64,000 nt of DNA from Schaalia sp. ORNL0103 (GTDB lineage: Bacteria > Actinomycetota > Actinomycetes > Actinomycetales > Actinomycetaceae), in the NCBI RefSeq assembly GCF_019429565.1, contig NZ_JAHXSA010000001.1:930001-994000 (forward strand). Reading direction: 5' to 3'. Positions 12,531 to 31,239 of the stretch are shown one piece after another. Numbering within the stretch: position 1 is the stretch's first letter; each line of letters opens with the position of its first letter. A model generated the notes under the pieces. It had not been told where the DNA came from, did not search any database, and saw only the letters and a list, made by a program, of their open reading frames with translations. The translations under genes were made by a program, and so were the position numbers.

Positions 12531-13708
12531 GCGAGTTCCTCCCCTTCTTCGCCGCGGCCTCGGATCAGGTCACGTGCCCGGCGCGTTCCCGATTCGGCGG
12601 GACTACCCATGGCGATCGCCAGCTTGTAGACCTCGAAGACCTTATCCGCTACAACCTCCCAATCATACTGCGCCGATGAGCGCGCTCCGGCTGCGGACAG
12701 CTCCTCGAGGCGGTCGTGGTCTGTCAGCAGGTCGATGAGTGTACGTGCGAGCGAGTCACTGTTGCCCGTCTCGAAGAGCGCGCCAGCTCGCCCGTCCTCT
12801 AGCACCGCACGGAAGGCTGGGATATCCGAGGCAACGACAGCCGTATGAGCCGCCATCGCCTCGACAAGGACGATACCGAAAGACTCGCCGCCCGTCTGCG
12901 GAGCGACGTAGATGCTGGCGCCCGCGAGCAAGGATTCCTTTTCCTCGTCGCTGATTCCACCCAGGAAAGACACCGAATCACCAAAACGCTCGACGGCCTG
13001 GCGAATCTCCGGGGCATCTCCTCGGCCGGCAATCAGGAAACGGGCACCCGGGAAACGCTCGAGAACACCAGCAATGGCACCGGCGAAAATGCTCAGACCC
13101 TTGCGGGGCTCATCGAGGCGGCCAAGAAACACGATGACCGGACGTTCGTCCGTCGCCACCCACTGTTCAAGGGGCTGCGCGCTGCGGAACGAGGCCGTTT
13201 CGACCCCGTTCGGAATGATGACGGCATCGCCGCCGTGGTGCTCGATCAGCGTTCGGCGCGCTTCCTCGGACACCGCGATGCGCACTCCGATGCGTTCCAT
13301 GTACAGGCGCATGGGGGCCGAGGCAATCGCGCGCGAGACCGACCGACCGAGGGCCGCGTGGAATGTCCCCACGAGGGGGGCAGTCGACAGCATCGCAGCT
13401 GCCATTGACACCGAGGGAACGACAGGCTCGTGGACGTGCACGACGTCAAAATCGTTGTCTGCCAGCCAACGGCGAGTACGCGCGAGCGCCTTCGGCTTCA
13501 CGGAAATATTGGCCACCGATCCGTTAAAGGGGATCGACACGGACGAACCGGCGGACGTGATCCACTCAGGCAGGTCCTCCGAGGTCGACGGCGTCAGCAC
13601 CTGAACGTCGTGTCCGCGGGACCGCAGCTTCAACGCGAGGTCGCGAATGTGGAAGCCCACTCCCCCGGGCACATCCCAGGAGTACGGATTCACGATTCCA
13701 ATCTTCAT
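12527..13708 (-). CDS. pimA: Phosphatidylinositol alpha-mannosyltransferase PimA
   Basis: 393-residue GT4 enzyme that transfers the first mannose from GDP-mannose to phosphatidylinositol on the cytoplasmic face of the membrane. The N-terminus MKIGIVNPYSWDVPGGVGFH is characteristic of PimA (glycine-rich acceptor loop). The C-terminal GT-B domain has VFLGRLDEPRKGL and a donor-binding stretch at VAPQTGGESFGIVLVEAMA with the EX7E pair. The gene follows the acyltransferase and pgsA in the conserved PIM order and overlaps both neighbours by ATGA. Confidence 0.93.
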   Translation of the reverse strand: MKIGIVNPYSWDVPGGVGFHIRDLALKLRSRGHDVQVLTPSTSEDLPEWITSAGSSVSIPFNGSVANISVKPKALARTRRWLADNDFDVVHVHEPVVPSVSMAAAMLSTAPLVGTFHAALGRSVSRAIASAPMRLYMERIGVRIAVSEEARRTLIEHHGGDAVIIPNGVETASFRSAQPLEQWVATDERPVIVFLGRLDEPRKGLSIFAGAIAGVLERFPGARFLIAGRGDAPEIRQAVERFGDSVSFLGGISDEEKESLLAGASIYVAPQTGGESFGIVLVEAMAAHTAVVASDIPAFRAVLEDGRAGALFETGNSDSLARTLIDLLTDHDRLEELSAAGARSSAQYDWEVVADKVFEVYKLAIAMGSPAESGTRRARDLIRGRGEEGEELA

Positions 13709-17958: not shown

Positions 17959-18984
17959 TCAGGAGCGGGCGCGCCAGTCCTTCACGGCCTTCGCGGCGCT
18001 CAGGGCACGGTAGGTGGCCTTCTTGATGGGCATGTCCCAGCCACCGGGCACGTCTGTGAAGTGCGAGGCGAAGGCACTCTTGTACTTACCGACGCTGTAC
18101 AGATCGGGGCAACGCGGCGAATGCGCGCCCATCAGGTCGAATTCGCGCACACCGTCGCGGGCAAGGAATTCGGCGGCCAGGAAATCCAGGACCGGGGGCT
18201 GGCGCAGGCGACGGCCGGCCTCGGTGGAGGCGCCGTATTCGGCCTGCGCACGGATTCCTTCGACGAGGCAGAAGTCCCAGCACAGGATGTTTCCGTCGGC
18301 ATCGCGCATCGAGAAAATGCGGGCGTGCTGCGGGCCCAGCGTCTTGAGCAGGCTGAGGTAGTACTCCTTGGGGTGGGGACGGAAGCCGTCACGCTTGGCG
18401 GTCTCCTCCATGACGGCGTAGTACTCGTCGATGACGGCCTCGGCGTTGGCGGTGTCCTCATGGAAGGTGACACCCTCGGCCTTGCCCTTCTTCAGGCCGG
18501 AGCGGATCGAGCGTTTGCCGGCCTTGGGCATGGCGGCGAGGATCGCTTCTTCGGTCTTGCCGGAGGTATCGATGACGACGGTGCGATCGTAGGAGATCGT
18601 CTGCAGCGGCATGCACAGGTCGGGGTGCTGGTAGATGGCGTGCAGGCGGACGAAGGCGACGGTCTTGTCCTTCGCCTTAATCTCACGCACGAGGTCCGCT
18701 CGCAGAGCAGCTTCGCGCTCCGGGGAGGCTTCCTTCACCCACGCAGGTCCCCACTTCGCCCACAGGTAGTGGACGCCGCGCACCGAATACTTATAGAGGG
18801 TGATGAACGCGATCTTGGAATCATCCTCGCACCAGGCGTAGCGTCCCCACACTCCGTGGCCCTGGGATTCTTCAAACGCTTCCCACACGCACGTCTGTTC
18901 GATGGGCAGGGAGCGGTCCTGGAAGCCAGAGACCGCGGCGATCTTGTCTTCCTGAGAAATGGGCACGAGTGCGGTTGTCGTCAT
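17959..18984 (-). CDS. FemX/FemAB-type peptidoglycan bridge aminoacyltransferase
   Basis: 341 residues with the two-lobed FemABX fold pattern: WEAFEESQGHGVWGRYAW, WAKWGPAWVKEASPE near residue 75, and a GNAT-like second half (FSMRDADGNILCWDFCLVEG, EFDLMGAHS, YKSAFASHFTDV). Such enzymes use aminoacyl-tRNA to add the first amino acid of the interpeptide bridge to lipid II. It is next to an ATP-grasp ligase on the same strand (103 bp between), which suggests joint work on the bridge. The amino acid added cannot be read from sequence; Lys, Ala or Ser are possibilities. Confidence 0.85.
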   Translation of the reverse strand: MTTTALVPISQEDKIAAVSGFQDRSLPIEQTCVWEAFEESQGHGVWGRYAWCEDDSKIAFITLYKYSVRGVHYLWAKWGPAWVKEASPEREAALRADLVREIKAKDKTVAFVRLHAIYQHPDLCMPLQTISYDRTVVIDTSGKTEEAILAAMPKAGKRSIRSGLKKGKAEGVTFHEDTANAEAVIDEYYAVMEETAKRDGFRPHPKEYYLSLLKTLGPQHARIFSMRDADGNILCWDFCLVEGIRAQAEYGASTEAGRRLRQPPVLDFLAAEFLARDGVREFDLMGAHSPRCPDLYSVGKYKSAFASHFTDVPGGWDMPIKKATYRALSAAKAVKDWRARS

Positions 18985-19087
18985 GGTGTCCTCGTTGGTC
19001 GGAAATATCGGTCGCGTAGGAAGTCAGTCTATCAGGGGCTTCTCCCCCGCTGACGAGGCCGGGGCCGGGCAGGGAAGGGGCGTGACG

Positions 19088-20365
19088 TCAGTAGGACGTC
19101 TCGGTGGGTTCCGGATAGTAGCGGGCGAACTTACGCCTGTGGTTCTGCTTCTGGAGCCACACGGTGAGGTTGCGGCGCAGGTCCTTCTCGGTTGGGTTGA
19201 GGAGCAGGTCGAAACGACGCCCCTCGCGGATGATGCGCTTGACGCGCGCGCGCAGCTCGGGGTCCGTGATGTAGTGAAGGAGGAGCGAATCGGGAACGAG
19301 GGTGTAGAGGATCTCGTCGGTCGCCTGGGTCTGCTCGCAGGCCTTGCCGTCAATAAGGTCCTCGACCATCGGGATCATCGGGTTCGCGCCGGCGGCGGCC
19401 ATGTACCAGTTGTTGCGACCGATACGCGGGTTCACCTCAAAAAAGAGCGCTCGCCCGTCCCTGGGATCGATCTTCACGTCGAAGTTCGCGAAACCGCGGT
19501 AGCCGTTCTCGGTCAGTAGGGCGCAGGCATCGCGCCACAGCGTCGGGAAGTCCTCGGTGATCATCGCGACGGGGTTTCCGATCATCGTGGGCGCGTGATC
19601 TTCGAGGAGGACGCGCGCCGACCCGATCAGGGTCACCTCTCCGCGCGAGTCTACGTACGCCGTGATCGAGCGCATCGCGGTGTTATCGCCGGGAATCAAC
19701 TCCTGCACCAGGAAGGTATCGCGGAAACCCGCAGCCTTCAGGGTCCCCCACAGCTGAGTGAGTTCCTCGGCCGTGTCGATGAACCAGATCTTGCGCTTGC
19801 CCTCGAACTCGAGCACATCGTAGGGCTCACCCTTGGCAGACTTAGCAACCACGGGGAAACTGAAGGGAATCTCAGGAGCGGCCCAGGCCTCGTCCTCCGC
19901 TCCGGAGAAATCGACCTCGACCGTCCCCGGCGTGGCAATCCCCGCACGCTCGCACGCACGAGCAAATTCTGCCTTGTCGGTCAGTCGATCCATGACCTCC
20001 TCGGTGGGGAACGGCAGCGCGTAGTGGCGTGAGAGCGTCTCCATGTTCCGGGCGACGAACGCCGAGAAGATGTCGTGGTTGGCCATCAGGATGAGCTTCT
20101 TGTCCGAATGCTCACCCGCAATGGTCATAAGGACGTCCAGGAGCTGTGCGTCACTCGCATGGGCGCTCACGTGGCGGACATCAAAAAAGTGCGAACGCGT
20201 GATCGACTCGGTCGGCTGCGATCCCACGCAGATGCACCGACAACCGAACGCTTCGTTGAAACAACGCCCAATTCCGTAGACTCCGAAGTCTCCTCCGATA
20301 ATGACGGGCAGGATGTCTTCGCGGGGCATCAGCGGTCGCGTCTGAGTCAGATAGTCGATCGTCAT
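19088..20365 (-). CDS. ATP-grasp carboxylate-amine ligase, candidate D-Asp/D-Glu ligase
   Basis: 425-residue ATP-grasp enzyme. An N-terminal Rossmann-like domain (VIIGGDFGVYGIGRCF) precedes the ATP-grasp core: PVVAKSAKGEPYDVLEFEGKRK, QELIPGDNTAMRSI, and metal/ATP residues in FFEVNPRIGRNNWYM. Closest by eye to the AslA-type D-aspartate ligases, which attach a D-amino acid to the lysine side chain of the peptidoglycan stem. Pairing with the FemX-like gene downstream supports a bridge role; Actinomyces peptidoglycans are known to include D-Glu- or D-Asp-containing bridges. The specific substrate is inference. Confidence 0.75.
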   Translation of the reverse strand: MTIDYLTQTRPLMPREDILPVIIGGDFGVYGIGRCFNEAFGCRCICVGSQPTESITRSHFFDVRHVSAHASDAQLLDVLMTIAGEHSDKKLILMANHDIFSAFVARNMETLSRHYALPFPTEEVMDRLTDKAEFARACERAGIATPGTVEVDFSGAEDEAWAAPEIPFSFPVVAKSAKGEPYDVLEFEGKRKIWFIDTAEELTQLWGTLKAAGFRDTFLVQELIPGDNTAMRSITAYVDSRGEVTLIGSARVLLEDHAPTMIGNPVAMITEDFPTLWRDACALLTENGYRGFANFDVKIDPRDGRALFFEVNPRIGRNNWYMAAAGANPMIPMVEDLIDGKACEQTQATDEILYTLVPDSLLLHYITDPELRARVKRIIREGRRFDLLLNPTEKDLRRNLTVWLQKQNHRRKFARYYPEPTETSY

Positions 20366-20436: not shown

Positions 20437-21264
20437 ATGAGCACGCCCTATTCTCCCGAGAATCAGCAGCCTTACCAGCCCCAGCAGGGTGGATACCCCC
20501 AGCAGGGCGGATACCAGCAAGGTGGCTTCGGGCAGCAGCCCACCCAGCAGATGCCCACCATGGGCGGTTACGGGCAGCAGCCCACCCAGCAGATGCCCGC
20601 CCTGGGGGCCTACGGTCAGTCTCAGGGCTACGGCCAGCAGGCCCAGCAGGGCTACTACCAGCAGGGCCAGTTCCCGGGCGCCCCGGGCGGCGATCAGCCG
20701 GCAAAGAAGAAGACTGGCCTCATCATCGGCATCATCGCGGCCGTCGTGGTCGTGCTCATTGCCGCCGGCGTCGCCATCTGGTGGTTCATGTCCGGCGACG
20801 ACTCTTCCGACGCCGATGCTGCCCAGAGTGCCCCGAGTGCCGCTGCCCCGTCCGCGGGCGCAAACCCGTCGCAGCCCCCCGTGGGCACCAACCCCTCGCA
20901 GCCTCCCGTCGGTACCAACCCCTCGCAGCCTCCCGTCGGTACCAACCCCTCGCAGCCTCCCGCGGGTACGTCCCCCTCTAAAGGCACGGGTCCTGGCGCC
21001 GGCTCTGATCCTGACATGGAGAAGCAGGCCATCGCCGAGTGCACGAAGGAAATCAACAGCGACTACACGAACGCAAACGTCTCGGACACGAAGCTGGAAC
21101 TGAAGGAAAGCTACGGTGAGACTAAGTGGTGGGACTACACCGGTACCGTCACCGGAACAAGCACTATCACGAACAAGCCTGTCACGACCCGGTTCACGTG
21201 CTCCGTGTTCTACTTCTCGAGCACGAAGGAATACTCCGCTGTCGTCATCCCCGAAACCTACTGA
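20437..21264 (+). CDS. Paralogue 1: Q/G/Y-rich membrane protein with PPVGTNPSQ stalk
   Basis: 275 residues, function unknown. Cytoplasmic N-terminus of about 88 residues is almost entirely Gln, Gly, Tyr and Pro, with repeats of QQPTQQMP and QGYYQQGQFPGAP. A Lys cluster and one TM helix (about 94-117) follow, then an acidic DDSSDADAA, then four 9-residue NPSQPP(V/A)GT repeats (143-178). A C-terminal domain of about 80 residues carries Cys202 and Cys255. By charge distribution the stalk and C-domain are outside. The start has GGAAG upstream. First of four tandem co-directional paralogues. Confidence 0.8.
   Translation: MSTPYSPENQQPYQPQQGGYPQQGGYQQGGFGQQPTQQMPTMGGYGQQPTQQMPALGAYGQSQGYGQQAQQGYYQQGQFPGAPGGDQPAKKKTGLIIGIIAAVVVVLIAAGVAIWWFMSGDDSSDADAAQSAPSAAAPSAGANPSQPPVGTNPSQPPVGTNPSQPPVGTNPSQPPAGTSPSKGTGPGAGSDPDMEKQAIAECTKEINSDYTNANVSDTKLELKESYGETKWWDYTGTVTGTSTITNKPVTTRFTCSVFYFSSTKEYSAVVIPETY
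20863..20970 (+). repeat. Four tandem 27-bp units encoding NPSQPP(V/A)GT
   Basis: Four in-frame 27-bp units in paralogue 1, nearly identical in DNA (CCTCGCAGCCTCCCGTCGGT core). Because the unit is a multiple of three, copy-number change would alter stalk length without a frameshift. Confidence 0.85.
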
Positions 21265-21270
21265 CACGCG

Positions 21271-21369
21271 CTGACAGTTTCCGATAGACCGAGGGAGTCC
21301 CCATGTCCACCCCCTTCAACCCCAACCAGCAGCCAATGCCCGGCAACGGTCCGTACCCAACCGGGCAGC
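21271..21369 (+). repeat. 99-bp perfect direct repeat, copy A
   Basis: Identical to 21990-22088, 719 bp away. It covers 32 bp of leader with the GAGGGAG ribosome site and the first 22 codons of paralogue 2. Confidence 0.95.
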
Positions 21370-21935
21370 CGGCAAAGAAAAAGACGGGCCTCATCATCGG
21401 GATCGTCGCAGCCGTCGTGGTTGCGCTCATTGCCGCCGGCGTCGCCATCTGGTGGTTCATGTCCGGCGACGACTCTTCCGACACTGATGCTGCCCAGAGC
21501 GCCCCGAGCACCTCGGCTCCCGCGGCAGGGACCAACCCTTCCGCACCTGGCGGCACCAACCCCTCGCAGCCGCCCGCGGGCACCAACCCCTCGCAGCCCC
21601 CGGTGGGTACCAACCCCTCGCAGCCCCCGGTGGGTACCAACCCCTCGCAGGATACAGCCCCTGGTGGCGGCTCTAACTCCGACCTTGACCAGCAGGCCTT
21701 CGCCGAGTGCAACAAGGAATTCGACTATTTTTACACGAATGCAAGCGTCTCTGATGTAAAGCTCGAGTGGACGAATACCGCCGCCGATGGTACCCGGGCG
21801 TGGATGTACAAAGGCACACTCACCGGTACGCGCAAGGCAACGAAGCAGAACGTCAACGCTCCTTTCACCTGTGATGTCGCCTACTTCGTCAGCTCAAAGA
21901 GTTTCAAAGCTGCCATTAACGTCAAAGATTACTGA
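21303..21935 (+). CDS. Paralogue 2: short form lacking the Q/Y-rich repeats (mosaic)
   Basis: 210 residues. The first 22 residues (MSTPFNPNQQPMPGNGPYPT) equal those of paralogue 3, then the protein jumps straight to the KKKTGLIIGI TM segment (28-52) without the Q/G/Y-rich tail. The TM end and acidic segment are nearly identical to paralogue 1 (58 bp identical DNA, 21425-21482 versus 20754-20811). Three 9-residue NPSQPP(A/V)GT units (86-112) form the stalk; Cys136 and Cys190 lie in the C-terminal domain. It reads as a recombinant between its two neighbours. The ribosome site GAGGGAG is strong. Function unknown. Confidence 0.8.
   Translation: MSTPFNPNQQPMPGNGPYPTGQPAKKKTGLIIGIVAAVVVALIAAGVAIWWFMSGDDSSDTDAAQSAPSTSAPAAGTNPSAPGGTNPSQPPAGTNPSQPPVGTNPSQPPVGTNPSQDTAPGGGSNSDLDQQAFAECNKEFDYFYTNASVSDVKLEWTNTAADGTRAWMYKGTLTGTRKATKQNVNAPFTCDVAYFVSSKSFKAAINVKDY
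21558..21638 (+). repeat. Three tandem 27-bp units encoding NPSQPP(A/V)GT
   Basis: Same repeat family as in paralogue 1, in frame in paralogue 2. Confidence 0.85.
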
Positions 21936-21989
21936 GACACAGCACTGTGACCTCGTCGAGCACGACAACTCCACTGCAGCGCACGCGCA

Positions 21990-22088
21990 CTGACAGTTTC
22001 CGATAGACCGAGGGAGTCCCCATGTCCACCCCCTTCAACCCCAACCAGCAGCCAATGCCCGGCAACGGTCCGTACCCAACCGGGCAGC
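21990..22088 (+). repeat. 99-bp perfect direct repeat, copy B
   Basis: Identical to 21271-21369. It covers the leader and first 22 codons of paralogue 3. Confidence 0.95.
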
Positions 22089-22732
22089 AGTTCGGCGCCG
22101 GTTACGGCCAGCAGCCCGGCCAGCAGATGCCTGGCGCTGGCAGCTACGGTCAGCCTCAGGGCTTCGGGCAGCAGCCTCAGCAGGGCTACTACCCTCAGGG
22201 CCAGTTCCAGGGCGCTCCCTATGGTGGAGCGCCGGAGAAGAAAAAGACGGGCCTCATCGTCGGTATCATCGCAGCAGTCCTGGTCGTCGCTATCATCGCC
22301 GGCATCGTGATCTGGGCACTGAACAAGGACGACTCTGACTCAGTCGCTGATTCACCCACTATGCCGGGGGTTCCTTCTCAGGGCTCCGGCCCTGCGGCGG
22401 GCACCAACCCGATGCAGCCGCCTGTGGGTACCAACCCGTCGCAGGGGACCGCTCCGGGGAATGGGAGCGCCGGACAAGGTGACATGCAGCAGCGGGTTGC
22501 CTCGATGTGCAAAGAGGAAATCAATAAGAAGTTTTCAAACGCCAACATCTCGAATGAGAACTTTACGCAGCCGGAGGTCCTCCCCAACGGCCAGAAGCAA
22601 ATCTACACCGGGATCGTCAGCGGAACCGAAACCTCAACGAACAAGAGCGGACGTTGGGAGTTCACATGTAACGGCTACTACATTAAAGACATGAACGACT
22701 ACACTGGCTGGATAACCTACAAAGAAGCCTAA
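22022..22732 (+). CDS. Paralogue 3: Q/G/Y-rich membrane protein
   Basis: 236 residues. Q/G/Y-rich N-terminus (1-72) with QGYYPQGQFQGAPYGGAPEKK, TM helix about 77-100, acidic NKDDSDSV, and a short stalk with a single MQPPVGTNPSQ unit. The C-terminal domain has Cys163 and Cys216 and the shared pattern C-x-E(I/F)N..FTC. The start has GAGGGAG upstream. Same order and strand as the other paralogues; likely one transcript. Function unknown. Confidence 0.8.
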   Translation: MSTPFNPNQQPMPGNGPYPTGQQFGAGYGQQPGQQMPGAGSYGQPQGFGQQPQQGYYPQGQFQGAPYGGAPEKKKTGLIVGIIAAVLVVAIIAGIVIWALNKDDSDSVADSPTMPGVPSQGSGPAAGTNPMQPPVGTNPSQGTAPGNGSAGQGDMQQRVASMCKEEINKKFSNANISNENFTQPEVLPNGQKQIYTGIVSGTETSTNKSGRWEFTCNGYYIKDMNDYTGWITYKEA

Positions 22733-22819
22733 GCCGTCACGTTCACGAGCTACCTTCAACGCACGTTGCGTTCACCTTGGAGACCGGCTCAACCTATCGA
22801 ACCACAAACGGGAGCACCA

Positions 22820-23572
22820 ATGTCGAACCCCTACAGCCCCAACCAGCAGCCTGCTGGCGGAAACGGCCAGTATCCGGCCGGGCAGCAGTACACCCAGCAG
22901 ATGCCCACCGCAGGCGGATATCAGCAGCAAGGGTACCCGCAGCAGCAGGGATACGCCCAGCAGCCTCAGCAGGGCTACTACCAGCAGGGCCAGTTCCCGG
23001 GCGCCCCGTACGGTGGAGCGCCGGAGAAGAAGTCGAAGACCGGGCTGATCATCGGCATCATTGCAGCTGTGGTGGTCGTGATCCTGGTCGCTGGCGTCGC
23101 GATCTGGGCCCTGACCAAGGACGATTCCTCCACCGACGAGGCATCGGCCTCGCCGAGCGCTCCGACCAGCGCAGCGCCCACGTCCGCTCCTTCCGCGGAG
23201 CCCAGCCCGTCGGCTCCCATGACTCCCGCCCCTGCACCGACCCAGTCCACGCCGCCCGTCAGCACAAAGCCCAGCCCCGCACCGACCCAGGGTACGGGTT
23301 CTTCCGGGAGCGTCAGCTCCGATGAGGAATACGGCGTCAAGTCTGAATGTAAGTCCGCACTATCGCAGACGGTCCAGCAGGGCAAGCTTGACAACTGGAC
23401 AGTCGAGCGTGACGGCGTGGATTCGAGCGGACGTCCTCAGTACCTATCGAAGGGCCAGTTCAACGGCACTCTTCTCACGGGCAAGAGCGGCACCTTCGAC
23501 TTCACGTGCACAGTCGTCTACCACCAGGAGAATGGCTTGTACGAGGCGTGGGCTTCTATCGACGCCTACTAA
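22820..23572 (+). CDS. Paralogue 4: Q/G/Y-rich membrane protein with Pro/Ser/Thr stalk
   Basis: 250 residues from ATG 22820 (GGGAG upstream; the frame is open from 22766). Q/G/Y-rich N-terminus (1-68), KKSKTGLIIGI TM helix (about 74-98). The stalk is different from the others: Ser/Pro/Thr/Ala-rich (about 104-165) without the NPSQPPVGT unit. C-terminal domain has Cys177 and Cys230, again 53 apart, with KSGTFDFTC. Most diverged of the four. It ends 21 bp before the GH13 gene on the same strand. Confidence 0.8.
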   Translation: MSNPYSPNQQPAGGNGQYPAGQQYTQQMPTAGGYQQQGYPQQQGYAQQPQQGYYQQGQFPGAPYGGAPEKKSKTGLIIGIIAAVVVVILVAGVAIWALTKDDSSTDEASASPSAPTSAAPTSAPSAEPSPSAPMTPAPAPTQSTPPVSTKPSPAPTQGTGSSGSVSSDEEYGVKSECKSALSQTVQQGKLDNWTVERDGVDSSGRPQYLSKGQFNGTLLTGKSGTFDFTCTVVYHQENGLYEAWASIDAY

Positions 23573-23593: not shown

Positions 23594-25360
23594 ATGATCA
23601 TCCACCCCGAGCTGCTTCCTGAAAAGCGCTACGCAGCGCAGCCCTGGTGGAAGAACGCCGTGCTGTACCAGGTCTATCCCCGTTCGTTCCAGGATACGAA
23701 CGGGGATGGACTCGGAGACCTTGCGGGGATTATCCGCCGCCTCGACTACCTCGCTGAGCTGGGTGTCGATATCGTGTGGATATCCCCGATCTACCGCTCC
23801 CCTCAGGCGGATAACGGCTATGACATCTCGGACTACCGCGACGTCGATCCGCTGTTCGGAGATCTCGAGGCTTTCGATGCGCTCGTTACGCGCGCCCACG
23901 ACCTGGGCATGCGCATCGTCATGGACCTCGTTGTCAACCACACGTCGATCGAGCACCCCTGGTTCGTTGAGTCAGCGTCGAGCGTCGACTCGGAGCGTCG
24001 AGACTGGTACTACTGGCGGGATCCGCGCCCTGGTTTCGAGCCTGGTGCTCCAGGTGCTGAGCCGACAAACTGGGAGTCGTTTTTCGGCGGGCCGGCGTGG
24101 GAGTATGACGCATCCACGGGCCAGTATTACCTTCATCTTTTCGCACGCGAGCAGCCCGATCTGAACTGGGAGAACCCGCAGGTTCGTGACGCCGTCTACG
24201 ACATGATGAACTGGTGGCTCGACCGGGGCGTCGACGGCTTCCGTGTCGACGCGATTGACGTTATTTCGAAGCTACCGGGCTTGCCCGATGGCGGCCCGCC
24301 CCGCCCGCCGTTTGGGGTCGGCCACGAATGCTTCGCGGACGGGCCTCGTCTTCACGAGTTCCTGCAGGAGATGCACGAACGGACGTTCGCTCACCATCCG
24401 GGGTCGTTTACGGTCGGTGAGGCCTCGAACGCATCCCCCAAGACCGCACTGCTGTTTTGCGATCCCGAGCGCCGCGAGTTCAACATGCTCATCCAGTTCG
24501 AGCACGTCAACCTCGGCCTCGAAAACGGAAAATTCTTACCCCGCCAGCTGGCACCCGGGGAACTGGCGGATGTTCTCACTCGCTGGCAGGACACGCTCGG
24601 GGTGCGCGGATGGAACGCGCTGTACCTGGAGAACCACGACCAGCCGCGCTCGGTGTCCCGTTTCGGGGATCCGTCACACTACTGGTACGAATCGGCAACC
24701 GCCCTGGCGACCGCCTATTTCCTCCAGCGCGGCACCCCCTTCATCTATCAGGGCCAAGAGATCGGCATGCTCGGCGGCGACTTCACGACCGAAGCCGATT
24801 TCCGTGACGTCGAATCCGTGTCATACATGGAGCGCCTGGGGATCGAAAAGGTCCCCGAGGGACTCGCCGCAATGTCACGAGATAACGGCCGGACCCCGAT
24901 GCAGTGGGACTCCTCCCCCGCTGCCGGTTTCTCTGAAGCAGTCCCCTGGATTGGCGTACCCGCTTCCGCTGAGCACATCACCGTCGCAGCGCAAGCGGAT
25001 GATCCCCAGTCCATTCTGACGTACTACCGCGCGCTCATCAGTGCTCGCCACGTCATCCCCGCGCTGACCGATGGAACGTTCTCACGGATAGATGCCTCAG
25101 CGCCTGCGCTTTTCGTCTATCGGCGCAGCGCTCCAGGTTCGGACGTCCTCGTGATGGTCAATCTGTCCGGTCAGCGCCATGCTCCCCTGTTCTCTCCGGA
25201 GGACGAGGCCGTGGCTTCGTTGCCGTGGCGCCTCTACCTGGGCAATACGGACACGTCGTTCGTCGAGACGGATGACGCCGGCGACCGCATACAGAGCGAA
25301 CCCACTGTTACCACACCGTTGAAGCCGTGGGAGGCTCGAGTATATCTCCTCGCTGGATAG
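23594..25360 (+). CDS. GH13 alpha-glucosidase/oligo-1,6-glucosidase
   Basis: 588-residue GH13 (subfamily 31-like) enzyme, cytoplasmic (no signal peptide), hydrolysing alpha-glucosidic bonds of malto- or isomalto-oligosaccharides. Conserved regions: calcium loop DTNGDGLGDL (34-43), region I DLVVNHT (111-117), region II GFRVDAID with nucleophile Asp219, region III TVGEA with acid Glu276, region IV ENHDQ near 350. It may process glucans released by the glycogen pathway or imported sugars; no transporter is adjacent. The start ATG 23594 has only a weak ribosome site. A strong bidirectional terminator follows. Confidence 0.93.
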   Translation: MIIHPELLPEKRYAAQPWWKNAVLYQVYPRSFQDTNGDGLGDLAGIIRRLDYLAELGVDIVWISPIYRSPQADNGYDISDYRDVDPLFGDLEAFDALVTRAHDLGMRIVMDLVVNHTSIEHPWFVESASSVDSERRDWYYWRDPRPGFEPGAPGAEPTNWESFFGGPAWEYDASTGQYYLHLFAREQPDLNWENPQVRDAVYDMMNWWLDRGVDGFRVDAIDVISKLPGLPDGGPPRPPFGVGHECFADGPRLHEFLQEMHERTFAHHPGSFTVGEASNASPKTALLFCDPERREFNMLIQFEHVNLGLENGKFLPRQLAPGELADVLTRWQDTLGVRGWNALYLENHDQPRSVSRFGDPSHYWYESATALATAYFLQRGTPFIYQGQEIGMLGGDFTTEADFRDVESVSYMERLGIEKVPEGLAAMSRDNGRTPMQWDSSPAAGFSEAVPWIGVPASAEHITVAAQADDPQSILTYYRALISARHVIPALTDGTFSRIDASAPALFVYRRSAPGSDVLVMVNLSGQRHAPLFSPEDEAVASLPWRLYLGNTDTSFVETDDAGDRIQSEPTVTTPLKPWEARVYLLAG

Positions 25361-25610: not shown

Positions 25611-27527
<1,917 letters not shown>

Positions 27528-27576
27528 AAAAAAACTCCTGTCGATGGACATGAGACGGTATCGCCTCAAGGTCATA

Positions 27577-27582
27577 ATTATA
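27577..27582 (-). promoter_or_regulatory. -10 element (TATAAT) of the Pro-Thr surface protein
   Basis: A consensus TATAAT on the minus strand, about 50 bp upstream of the chosen ATG, in an AT-rich patch unusual for this genome. No clear -35 hexamer at 17 bp. Confidence 0.55.
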
Positions 27583-27605
27583 GAGTAACGGAGCAAAAAG
27601 TCCAC

Positions 27606-28149: not shown

Positions 28150-29784
28150 TCAGCGGCTACGGCGCTTGGCCGCCACGAGAGACAGGCCCGCAATCGCGAC
28201 GATTCCAGCCAGGACACCCAGGCCTGCCGCGTCAGTACCGGTCTTGGCCAGCTTAGGAGCGGGCGAAGGAGTAGCCGAGGGGGTCGGAGCGGGCATAGAG
28301 GGAGTGTCGGACGGGGTCGGGGTCGGGGCCGGCGCCACCGTGTTGGTCAGCGTCAGCGAGTAGACCCGATCATCACTCAGCGTGAAGGTGGCCTCGCGGT
28401 TGTCCGCGGAGAGGGTCACGCCATCGGCAGTCTCGAAGACGCGGCTCTCGCCGTCGACCCAGGTGATTCCGACACCGGCGGGCAGATCGCCCTCAGCAAC
28501 GGTCACGACGGTACCCAGCGGGAGAGACGTGGGGTACGTGTAGGTCTCCCCAGCCTTGACGGAGGCCTCGAAGGTCTTGTTCACCGAGGGATCAGTGTCA
28601 TTCTTCAGGGTGATCGTCAGCGGGTACTCGAGGTCCTGGGCGGACTCGGGCAGATCACCCTCAACCTTCTTGGTCACAGAGAAGGTCTGGTGAGCGTACG
28701 CGTCGGCAGCCGCGCCGTAGTGGAGGGTCTTCGTAATGGGCTCGACGACCTTGCCACCGGGAACGTTGAAGTTGACGGTGTTGGAGAAGACGCCCACGAC
28801 GTCACCAGCGCGCTTCGCACCCTCGATGCGGGCGGGGAGCAGGATGATGGCGGACTGGTTCGCAGGAATCTCGGCAAGCGTGACGGTCACCTTGGAGGAG
28901 GAGCACTCGACCTGCGCGGCAGCACCGAAGGCACCCTTCGAAGTGTCATTGTCCTGGCGGAGCCCCTCAGAGGTGGTCGGGTCGGTCACCAGGAAAGTGT
29001 GCTTCTTGGTGTACTCATTGACGACGTCGCAGTTAAAGCTCCAGTTGGAGCCCGCAGGGACCTCGTCGACAATCGACGCACCGGTCACGGCCTTGTCGCC
29101 AGCAGGGAAGACAACGCGCCACATGATGGCCTTGTTCTCGTCACCATCCTTATCCTCAGCGAGGTTCAGCCAGCCGTCCTTCTGGTAGCGAGGCACGCCG
29201 GGGGTGCGGCGCAGCATGTCGATCTCGCGCTCGACCTTCTTGCCGAGCTTGACCTTGTACTTCTCACCGCCAGGACCGGTGTAGTGGGTCAGGCCGTTGG
29301 TGGACACATGGCCATACCACTGCGCGGCAGACTCGACCTTCTCATTGAAGACGACGGTCACCATGCCGTCAGCACCCCAGGTACCGCAGCCGACGACGAC
29401 ACCGTTGTTAGAGATGACCTCAAACTTACGGGCAACGTTCGGGCGCAGAACGCTCTCCCCCGTCGCCGAGTTCACGATCGAGGCATCGTAAGTGAAGTAG
29501 TCGCCGGCCTTCACACGGCCGTCAGTCTTCCACGGCAGCTTAATGCCAAGGTCCCACCAGTCGCCCACAGCCTTGGTCTCACGACCGGCGTGGTCGACGA
29601 GCTGAGCATTGTCCCAATCCAAGGTGACCTTGTTGCTCACATTCGTGGTCGGCTCGGGGCAGCTCAGGGGGGCCGCAGATGCAGGAGCCTGAGCGCCGAC
29701 AAACTGCGCCAGGCCAAAGAAACTCAAAACCAATGCGAAAGTCGCAAGAAGAACACCGAAGTGACGGCGCTTCAGGGCAGCCAT
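28150..29784 (-). CDS. LAKTG-anchored DUF5979-type surface protein (paralogue without Pro-Thr tract)
   Basis: 544 residues, clearly paralogous to the 25611-27527 product along its length (for example [22 protein letters not shown] versus [22 protein letters not shown]). Signal peptide about 1-37; extracellular domains ending in the DUF5979-like FSVTKKVEGDLPESAQDLEY to VYSLTLTNTV. The wall linker is short (PTPSDTPSMPAPTPSATPSP), followed by LAKTG, a hydrophobic helix and KRRSR. ATG 29784 has CAGGAG upstream, with the same spacing as the paralogue. A terminator follows. Tandem but separately transcribed surface proteins. Confidence 0.88.
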   Translation of the reverse strand: MAALKRRHFGVLLATFALVLSFFGLAQFVGAQAPASAAPLSCPEPTTNVSNKVTLDWDNAQLVDHAGRETKAVGDWWDLGIKLPWKTDGRVKAGDYFTYDASIVNSATGESVLRPNVARKFEVISNNGVVVGCGTWGADGMVTVVFNEKVESAAQWYGHVSTNGLTHYTGPGGEKYKVKLGKKVEREIDMLRRTPGVPRYQKDGWLNLAEDKDGDENKAIMWRVVFPAGDKAVTGASIVDEVPAGSNWSFNCDVVNEYTKKHTFLVTDPTTSEGLRQDNDTSKGAFGAAAQVECSSSKVTVTLAEIPANQSAIILLPARIEGAKRAGDVVGVFSNTVNFNVPGGKVVEPITKTLHYGAAADAYAHQTFSVTKKVEGDLPESAQDLEYPLTITLKNDTDPSVNKTFEASVKAGETYTYPTSLPLGTVVTVAEGDLPAGVGITWVDGESRVFETADGVTLSADNREATFTLSDDRVYSLTLTNTVAPAPTPTPSDTPSMPAPTPSATPSPAPKLAKTGTDAAGLGVLAGIVAIAGLSLVAAKRRSR

Positions 29785-30783: not shown

Positions 30784-30858
30784 TGGTGGGCGATACTGGG
30801 ATCGAACCAGTGACCTCTTCCGTGTGAAGGAAGCGCGCTACCCCTGCGCCAATCGCCC
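30784..30858 (-). tRNA. tRNA-Val (anticodon CAC)
   Basis: Acceptor GGGCGAT/ATCGCCC, anticodon stem CTTCC/GGAAG with loop TTCACAC (CAC), T-loop GGTTCGATCC. A CCA is present at 30784-30786 directly after the discriminator A. Last gene of the operon. Confidence 0.95.
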
Positions 30859-30859
30859 G

Positions 30860-30930
30860 AGGTGGGTACGGGATTCGAACCCGTGTATACGGCTTTGCAG
30901 GCCGCTGCCTCGCCTCTCGGCCAACCCACC
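30860..30930 (-). tRNA. tRNA-Cys (anticodon GCA)
   Basis: Acceptor GGTGGGT/ACCCACC, anticodon loop CTGCAAA (GCA), discriminator U as expected for Cys. CCA is not encoded. One base separates it from tRNA-Val. Confidence 0.95.
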
Positions 30931-30964
30931 ACACCCAATGGGATCGAGTGGATTCCCGATTGAG

Positions 30965-31037
30965 AGCGGATGACGGGACTCGAACCCGCGACCCTCACCT
31001 TGGCAAGGTGATGCTCTACCAACTGAGCCACATCCGC
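30965..31037 (-). tRNA. tRNA-Gly (anticodon GCC), copy 2
   Basis: Acceptor GCGGATG/CATCCGC, anticodon loop TTGCCAA (GCC). Same sequence as the copy at 31167-31239. Confidence 0.95.
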
Positions 31038-31093
31038 GTGAACCGCTTGTGCGGCCGGGCTATAGCCCGCCAATCCTGTTACCAGGATGACCG

Positions 31094-31165
31094 TGGGCGA
31101 TACTGGGATCGAACCAGTGACCTCTTCCGTGTCAGGGAAGCGCGCTCCCGCTGCGCCAATCGCCC
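31094..31165 (-). tRNA. tRNA-Val (anticodon GAC)
   Basis: Acceptor GGGCGAT/ATCGCCC, anticodon loop CTGACAC (GAC). Differs from the CAC tRNA-Val mainly in the D-arm and anticodon loop, so the two share a recent origin. CCA not encoded. Confidence 0.95.
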
Positions 31166-31166
31166 G

Positions 31167-31239
31167 AGCGGATGACGGGACTCGAACCCGCGACCCTCAC
31201 CTTGGCAAGGTGATGCTCTACCAACTGAGCCACATCCGC
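31167..31239 (-). tRNA. tRNA-Gly (anticodon GCC), copy 1
   Basis: First tRNA of the operon, one base from tRNA-Val(GAC). Anticodon loop TTGCCAA. Its sequence equals copy 2, indicating a duplicated Gly-Val pair. Confidence 0.95.

Follow-up and report, generated by a model that had tools for sequence, protein, structure and literature searches.

Among described proteins, those nearest to the modelled structure of the domain studied here, at a level close to background, belong to the cystatin fold (chicken cystatin 1cew, cystatin C 3nx0, latexin 1wnh, and the designed protein 4r80). Papain-type cystatins are marked by a QxVxG motif in the first hairpin loop and a PW motif in the second one. Here, we describe a family of small domains with two cysteines (Cys) that form the C-terminal ends of four membrane proteins encoded in tandem within a 64,000-nt stretch of DNA (the window, to which coordinates refer) of Schaalia sp. 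ORNL0103, an oral Schaalia. The four domains are confirmed as members of one family, and we give a probability of about 40% to the array being a diversifying envelope recognition module on Pro/Ser/Thr stalks in the Schaalia odontolytica group.

Compared with cystatins, the array domains show 4-17% identity, lack QxVxG or PW, are predicted to be membrane-tethered, and have a helix-sheet Cys pair as the only invariant feature of the family. For the bitopic transfer proteins VirB8/TraM (2cc3, 3wz3, 3ub1), the structural Z of the array domains was within background; no Pfam match to them was found on 22 domains, which may still be remote homologues, and no type IV secretion genes were present among the annotated genes of the window (covering part of it) or the syntenic flank genes. 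The mycobacterial protein Apa (5zxa) also scored within background, no sequence match between it and the array domains was found, and its chain layout differs from that of the array proteins. The domain DUF4333 (PF14230) is likewise small, has two invariant Cys, and occurs in the same bacterial family, but its Cys spacing is ~14; it was rejected, with hhalign of profile A2 against ten DUF4333 members giving a probability of 0.5%, and no DUF4333 match was detected in this genome at E <= 0.01. Listings from searches of the open-access literature showed no account of this two-Cys family.

Architecture of the array and its two-Cys domain family

The array genes, copies 1 to 4 (c1 to c4), and their C-terminal domains (C-domains) are as follows:

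20437..21264, + strand: c1, 275 aa; Q/G/Y tail 1-91, transmembrane (TM) helix ~94-119, stalk ~120-191, C202/C255
20974..21261, + strand: c1 C-terminal two-Cys domain, aligned stretch
21303..21935, + strand: c2, 210 aa; short tail; C136/C190; recombinant
21642..21932, + strand: c2 C-terminal two-Cys domain, aligned stretch
22022..22732, + strand: c3, 236 aa; C163/C216
22442..22729, + strand: c3 C-terminal two-Cys domain, aligned and modelled stretch
22820..23572, + strand: c4, 250 aa; C177/C230; type kept in 12/12 syntenic genomes
23282..23569, + strand: c4 C-terminal two-Cys domain, aligned and modelled stretch

In the mechanical list of open reading frames (ORFs), c4 begins at a TTG further upstream (22766); the ATG at 22820 yields the MSNPY start adopted in a preliminary description of the locus. 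Gaps of 38, 86, and 87 bp separate the genes. That description had proposed four consecutive same-strand genes of one architecture, and this was borne out by the ORFs at 20437-23572, all on the + strand, as were the residue positions of the two Cys and their spacings of 53, 54, 53, and 53. These are the only Cys in each protein, both lie in the C-terminal domain, and 20 residues follow the second one in 4/4 proteins. The KTGLI(I/V)GI helix, the acidic cap, and the Pro-rich stalk were also present as described, each protein having a single hydrophobic helix with lysines before it and the cap after it, and a Pro/Ser/Thr stalk of 72, 71, 50, and 66 residues (c1 to c4). The tail before KTGLI comprises 91, 26, 74, and 72 residues, with a Q+G+Y+P content of 74, 54, 72, and 72%; what had been called missing in copy 2 is a tail shortened to 26 residues. 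The proteins fit an N-inside/C-outside topology, predicted because lysines precede the helix and Asp and other acidic residues follow it, in line with the positive-inside rule. As a whole, the array architecture is well supported.

The likeness among the C-domains is not due to chance, because that of c3, used as a single query, retrieved those of c1, c2, and c4 at E values of 4e-12, 1e-5, and 9e-5, together with relatives in 10/35 genus genomes (the window's genome included). In the set of 22 proteins formed by the window's four and 18 relatives from this search, each protein has two Cys, spaced by 53 or 54 residues in 22/22, and the alignment of their domains (A1) kept only columns C23, G57, G61, F74, and C76 invariant. 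Matches near 1e-5 in genome G010 led to a second array, with the following extent:

L079 6889-12230: G010 second array, seven genes, mostly overlapping or closely spaced; matching set in G022

This array holds nine domains, two of its genes having two each, with Cys spacings of 49-62, and is flanked, as judged by eye, by folC and ABC-transporter/two-component genes. Comparison of A1, which lacks the G010 domains, with the nine of them as profiles gave a probability of 96.3% and an E value of 1.9e-9 over 86 columns. A further alignment (A6), of 32 of the 46 domain matches found by a joint profile (A5), contains 64 Cys, two per domain; both Cys are present in 32/32, and their columns are the sole invariant ones. 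The domain ends in A6 were set from the Cys, so this cut presupposes the pair; independently, the joint profile returned nine domains in the G010 array, the same nine as the Cys-based cut. Omitted from A6 were three G006 domains (two Cys each), one from G016 and one from G019 (two Cys seen), and nine from G022, three of which were read. These data confirm that the four C-terminal domains are one family. The constancy of the Cys spacing, from which a disulfide-closed fold had been suggested, holds among close relatives and gives way in the remote branch, where both Cys are nevertheless retained; constant spacing thus reflects shared ancestry.

AlphaFold models of the c3 and c4 C-domains show one helix and four main strands, in agreement with the single helix and four-stranded antiparallel sheet of the cystatin fold, which is the closest structural class, yet near the background of the structure search. 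The predicted fold can therefore be called cystatin-like, with this proximity to background. The nearest folds listed were cystatins, latexin and, lower down, the squash aspartic proteinase inhibitor SQAPI, and VirB8/TraM and NTF2-like proteins appear in the same lists. In the predicted structures, the two Cys lie on hydrophobic surfaces of helix and strand, and because of this location, along with the presence of both Cys throughout A6, the disulfide proposed at first is likely. A VKOR gene, of the kind that acts with MdbA in oxidising exported proteins, is present in the genome.

No named family had been recognised in the preliminary description, and searches of Pfam (22 domains) and of NCBIfam, PHROGs, and PADLOC (32 domains each) agreed, giving no convincing match to the C-domains. 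The Pfam matches (one family in 3/22 domains, best E 0.076, and six more in one domain each, best E 0.0026) and those of NCBIfam (eight families, one domain each, best E 0.0018) were judged to be chance, and those of PHROG were single-member and weak (best E 0.017). A defence system was rejected, as three PADLOC models matched one of 32 members each (best E 0.024). Matches of full proteins in NCBIfam (GltJ, FliL, Rv0361, and others; best E 4e-10) were also discarded, being below cut-offs and located on tail, TM helix, or stalk. A search of solved structures with the family profile gave a best E of 0.15, to an unrelated protein.

Divergence, mosaicism and distribution

Nonsynonymous (dN) and synonymous (dS) divergence, and their ratio omega, were compared between the window and four sister genomes (12 comparisons). 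The C-domains showed dN of 0.08-0.28, dS of 0.29-1.19, and omega of 0.16-0.37. For the same genomes, the values were 0.007-0.015 (dN) and 0.25-0.45 (dS) in the ATP-grasp gene that flanks the array, 0.003-0.010 and 0.16-0.32 in thrS, and dN of 0.03-0.05 in both the GH13 gene that follows the array and the gene at 13705. The C-domains hence change more quickly than the flanking genes do, with selection on them purifying on balance; positive selection is not claimed, as the average omega is <1. In 10/12 comparisons, the C-domain dS exceeded that of the ATP-grasp gene, an excess that fits recombinational exchange of old alleles.

Copy 2 shares identical blocks with its two neighbours:

21271..21369 = 21990..22088, + strand: 99-bp identical blocks, c2 vs c3; 5' untranslated region and first 22 codons
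20754..20811 = 21425..21482, + strand: 58-bp identical blocks, c1 vs c2; TM end and acidic cap

The c2 C-domain is 64% identical to c1 of G005 and 61% to c1 of G006, compared with 47% to c1 of its own genome, and groups in the tree with c1 of G005 (support 99/99). Copy 2 is therefore a mosaic, having its 5' end in common with c3, its TM region in common with c1, and a C-domain nearest to c1 of other species. In each of the four sister genomes, the locus holds three copies, none of them c2-like in position.

The A1 profile matched 14/213 genomes of the bacterial family, all of them from the window's genus (1/36 genera), and the joint profile A5 matched 16/213, again all within one genus, with no match in 19/35 genus genomes. 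Beyond the genus, the profile search that had been suggested for Actinomycetota, run on samples in which only the best 12 candidates were scored in large genomes, produced no convincing relative: 396 phylum genomes (profile A2) yielded the own genome and one weak hit (E 0.008), and 394 class genomes (profile A5) the own genome and one weak hit with an internal stop (E 0.004), both treated as chance. Among five loci, two metagenome-assembled genome records (L066, L067) match only around the TM helix. The public records L063 and L065 are titled Xylanimonas cellulosilytica 352_XCEL and Sanguibacter keddieii 250_SKED; both contain the Schaalia locus, with thrS 98-99% identical to that of the window, and their names look wrong.

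Proposed recognition at the cell surface

The faster change of the C-domains than of surrounding genes hints at recognition of something at the cell surface, and their fast change, tandem growth, and mosaic alleles resemble those of surface recognition proteins. We infer surface recognition, stalk glycosylation, and a variable partner in the following scheme. A single helix would anchor the protein and leave the low-complexity Q/G/Y tail on the cytoplasmic side, while the Pro/Ser/Thr stalk of 50-72 residues would lead outward to the cystatin-like domain, in which a single disulfide would tie the helix to the four-stranded sheet beneath it. As an extended Pro-rich chain, 50-70 residues at ~0.3 nm would reach ~15-21 nm, probably comparable to the Gram-positive wall. 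Anchor and stalk would constitute a common, recombining chassis and the outer domain the working part, which would change quickly via duplication, recombination, and point change. Its job would most likely be to bind or to shield at the surface of the cell, where the partner would be variable too; neighbouring bacteria, epibionts, phage, and host saliva proteins are candidates.

The stalk may be O-mannosylated. The genome encodes an O-mannosyltransferase domain, PMT_4TMC (G000:C1:122043-122642), and the PMT C-terminal domain was found in 15/16 family carriers vs 5/19 other genus genomes (Fisher p 9e-5), a co-occurrence that is confounded by phylogeny and thus only a hint; the only carrier that lacks it is G008, whose genome is 70% complete. 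A condensate-forming role of the Q/G/Y tail, hinted at in the preliminary description, found no support. The tail looks like a generic anchor because it is nearly absent in c2 and because a comparable anchor bears a different ectodomain elsewhere. On contig C2 of the own genome (L080 6756-7601), between recF/DUF721 and gyrB genes (by eye), a gene encodes a similar Q/G/Y tail and TM anchor followed by an ectodomain that resembles DUF5067 (E 6e-4, short of the Pfam cut-off), and this type of anchor apparently serves other outer domains too.

The main arguments against a recognition module are the average purifying selection, the fast change of the stalk, and the constant GH13 neighbour. Stalk dN exceeded C-domain dN in 4/12 comparisons, and tail dN did so in 1/12.

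Genomic setting and alternative explanations

The immediate neighbours of the array are as follows:

17959..18984, - strand: FemAB-type transferase, next flank gene
19088..20365, - strand: ATP-grasp protein (Pfam CPSase_L_D2), divergently oriented beside the array
23594..25360, + strand: GH13-family enzyme (Pfam Alpha-amylase), 21 bp after c4, constant neighbour

In 12 genomes (the window and L068-L078), the array lies between the ATP-grasp and GH13 genes, with femAB and thrS (by eye) beyond. The number of copies there is four in the window, three in G005, G006, G023, and G024, two in G013, G018, and G020, and one in G001, G007, G008, and G021, and the copy adjacent to GH13 is c4-like in 12/12. 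The ATP-grasp protein is at least 80% identical in the 12 locus-bearing genomes and at most 70% in another 20, the gene being missing in 3/35. Inspection of 6-9 kb alongside 18 of these 20 loci (all except G014 and G030) revealed no array and no close GH13 relative; four of the 18 array-less loci belong to genomes (G010, G016, G019, G022) that carry the family elsewhere. The FemAB-type and ATP-grasp genes (17959-20365, -) adjoin thrS, are kept in 12/12 syntenic genomes, and make a plausible peptidoglycan cross-bridge pair. The neighbourhood argument first made for an envelope role has to be revised: in the 12 syntenic genomes both flanks are conserved, that with the ATP-grasp gene and that with GH13, which comes immediately after the c4-type copy, and the surface proteins lie at a greater distance downstream, encoded on the other strand.

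These surface proteins (25611-27605, -, and 28150-29784, -) are related and contain Big_8 and DUF5979; in the first, the C-terminal anchor is preceded by a very long stretch of Thr-Pro dipeptides. Further on, five tRNA genes (Val, Cys, Gly, Val, Gly) are located at 30784-31239 (-) beside glgX.

Of the alternatives to a recognition module, a housekeeping envelope component, such as a scaffold for cell-wall assembly or division that drifts under weak constraint, is unlikely, though it deserves consideration. It would agree with the proximity of the array to the FemAB and ATP-grasp genes, which is seen in every syntenic genome (12/12), with omega <1, and with stalks and tails that change fast too. 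However, the family is unmatched in more than half of the genus genomes (19/35) at profile sensitivity, none of the 18 other ATP-grasp loci inspected has the array alongside, and its copy number varies.

It is also rather improbable that the proteins are carbohydrate-linked accessories, with c4 co-transcribed with GH13 and devoted to sugar sensing, glucan binding, or enzyme regulation, and the other copies being duplicates. A c4-type gene lies directly upstream of GH13 in every syntenic genome, and both array and close GH13 relative are missing beside the ATP-grasp gene in the stretch inspected in the 18 array-less loci. A scan from c1 to the GH13 start found no terminator-like sites, which is weak evidence, since promoter-like sites were not found either. 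However, the C-domain dN exceeds the GH13 one by a factor of 1.6 to 6.9 in the same genome pairs, and no GH13-type enzyme was seen by eye among the ORFs adjacent to the G010 array. Moreover, the GH13 protein showed no obvious signal sequence (by eye), so the membrane would separate it from the array domains.

A role as bacterial cystatins, tethered to the membrane and directed against cysteine proteases of the host or of neighbours, is very unlikely, despite cystatins, latexin, and SQAPI being the nearest folds: QxVxG and PW occur in none of the 32 domains, which rejects inhibition of the animal type, no cystatin family appeared among the Pfam matches of the 22 domains, and fold alone shows no function; VirB8/TraM and NTF2-like proteins are in the same lists. 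There is just as little chance of a neutral or selfish family, in which lipoprotein-like genes or genes of phage descent would merely duplicate at one place in the chromosome, and for which tandem growth, variable copy number, and weak Foldseek phage matches could speak (e.g., a Gordonia phage lipoprotein with probability 1.00 and TMq 0.66, but E 0.16 and rmsd (root-mean-square deviation) 9.8), as the array is syntenic in 12 genomes, the PHROG matches are those weak ones, and a prophage or mobile origin was rejected, the genes examined at the locus including none that is phage-like.

A more specific proposal, which we regard as a long shot, is that the array is a polymorphic docking or decoy surface of the S. 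odontolytica clade for epibionts of the Saccharibacteria (Nanosynbacter lyticus TM7x and its relatives), on which rapidly changing domains locked by a disulfide would be held out on O-mannosylated stalks. TM7x, a cultured epibiont of the Patescibacteria, has a member of this genus, Schaalia odontolytica, as its host; epibiont-host binding is described as largely unknown, with type IV pili proposed to bind a host receptor (PMC12206443). In PMC7784981, TM7x infected 13/13 tested clade-2 strains (XH001 and 12 more; A. odontolyticus, A. meyeri) and no tested clade-1 strain, and the comparison in its Table 1 lists Pfam functions, so the two-Cys family, which has none, could have been missed. The locus-bearing clade has S. 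odontolytica among its members and seems to be about as wide as clade 2, but any clade-specific gene would show such overlap.

In conclusion, the array defines an unnamed family of tandem envelope proteins, so far from one genus, with a fold that had no annotation. If its members are only drifting envelope proteins, the value lies in the annotation of a family now nameless. A saturated transposon library of the host strain XH001 has been published (PMC12369343), which makes the role of the array genes directly testable.

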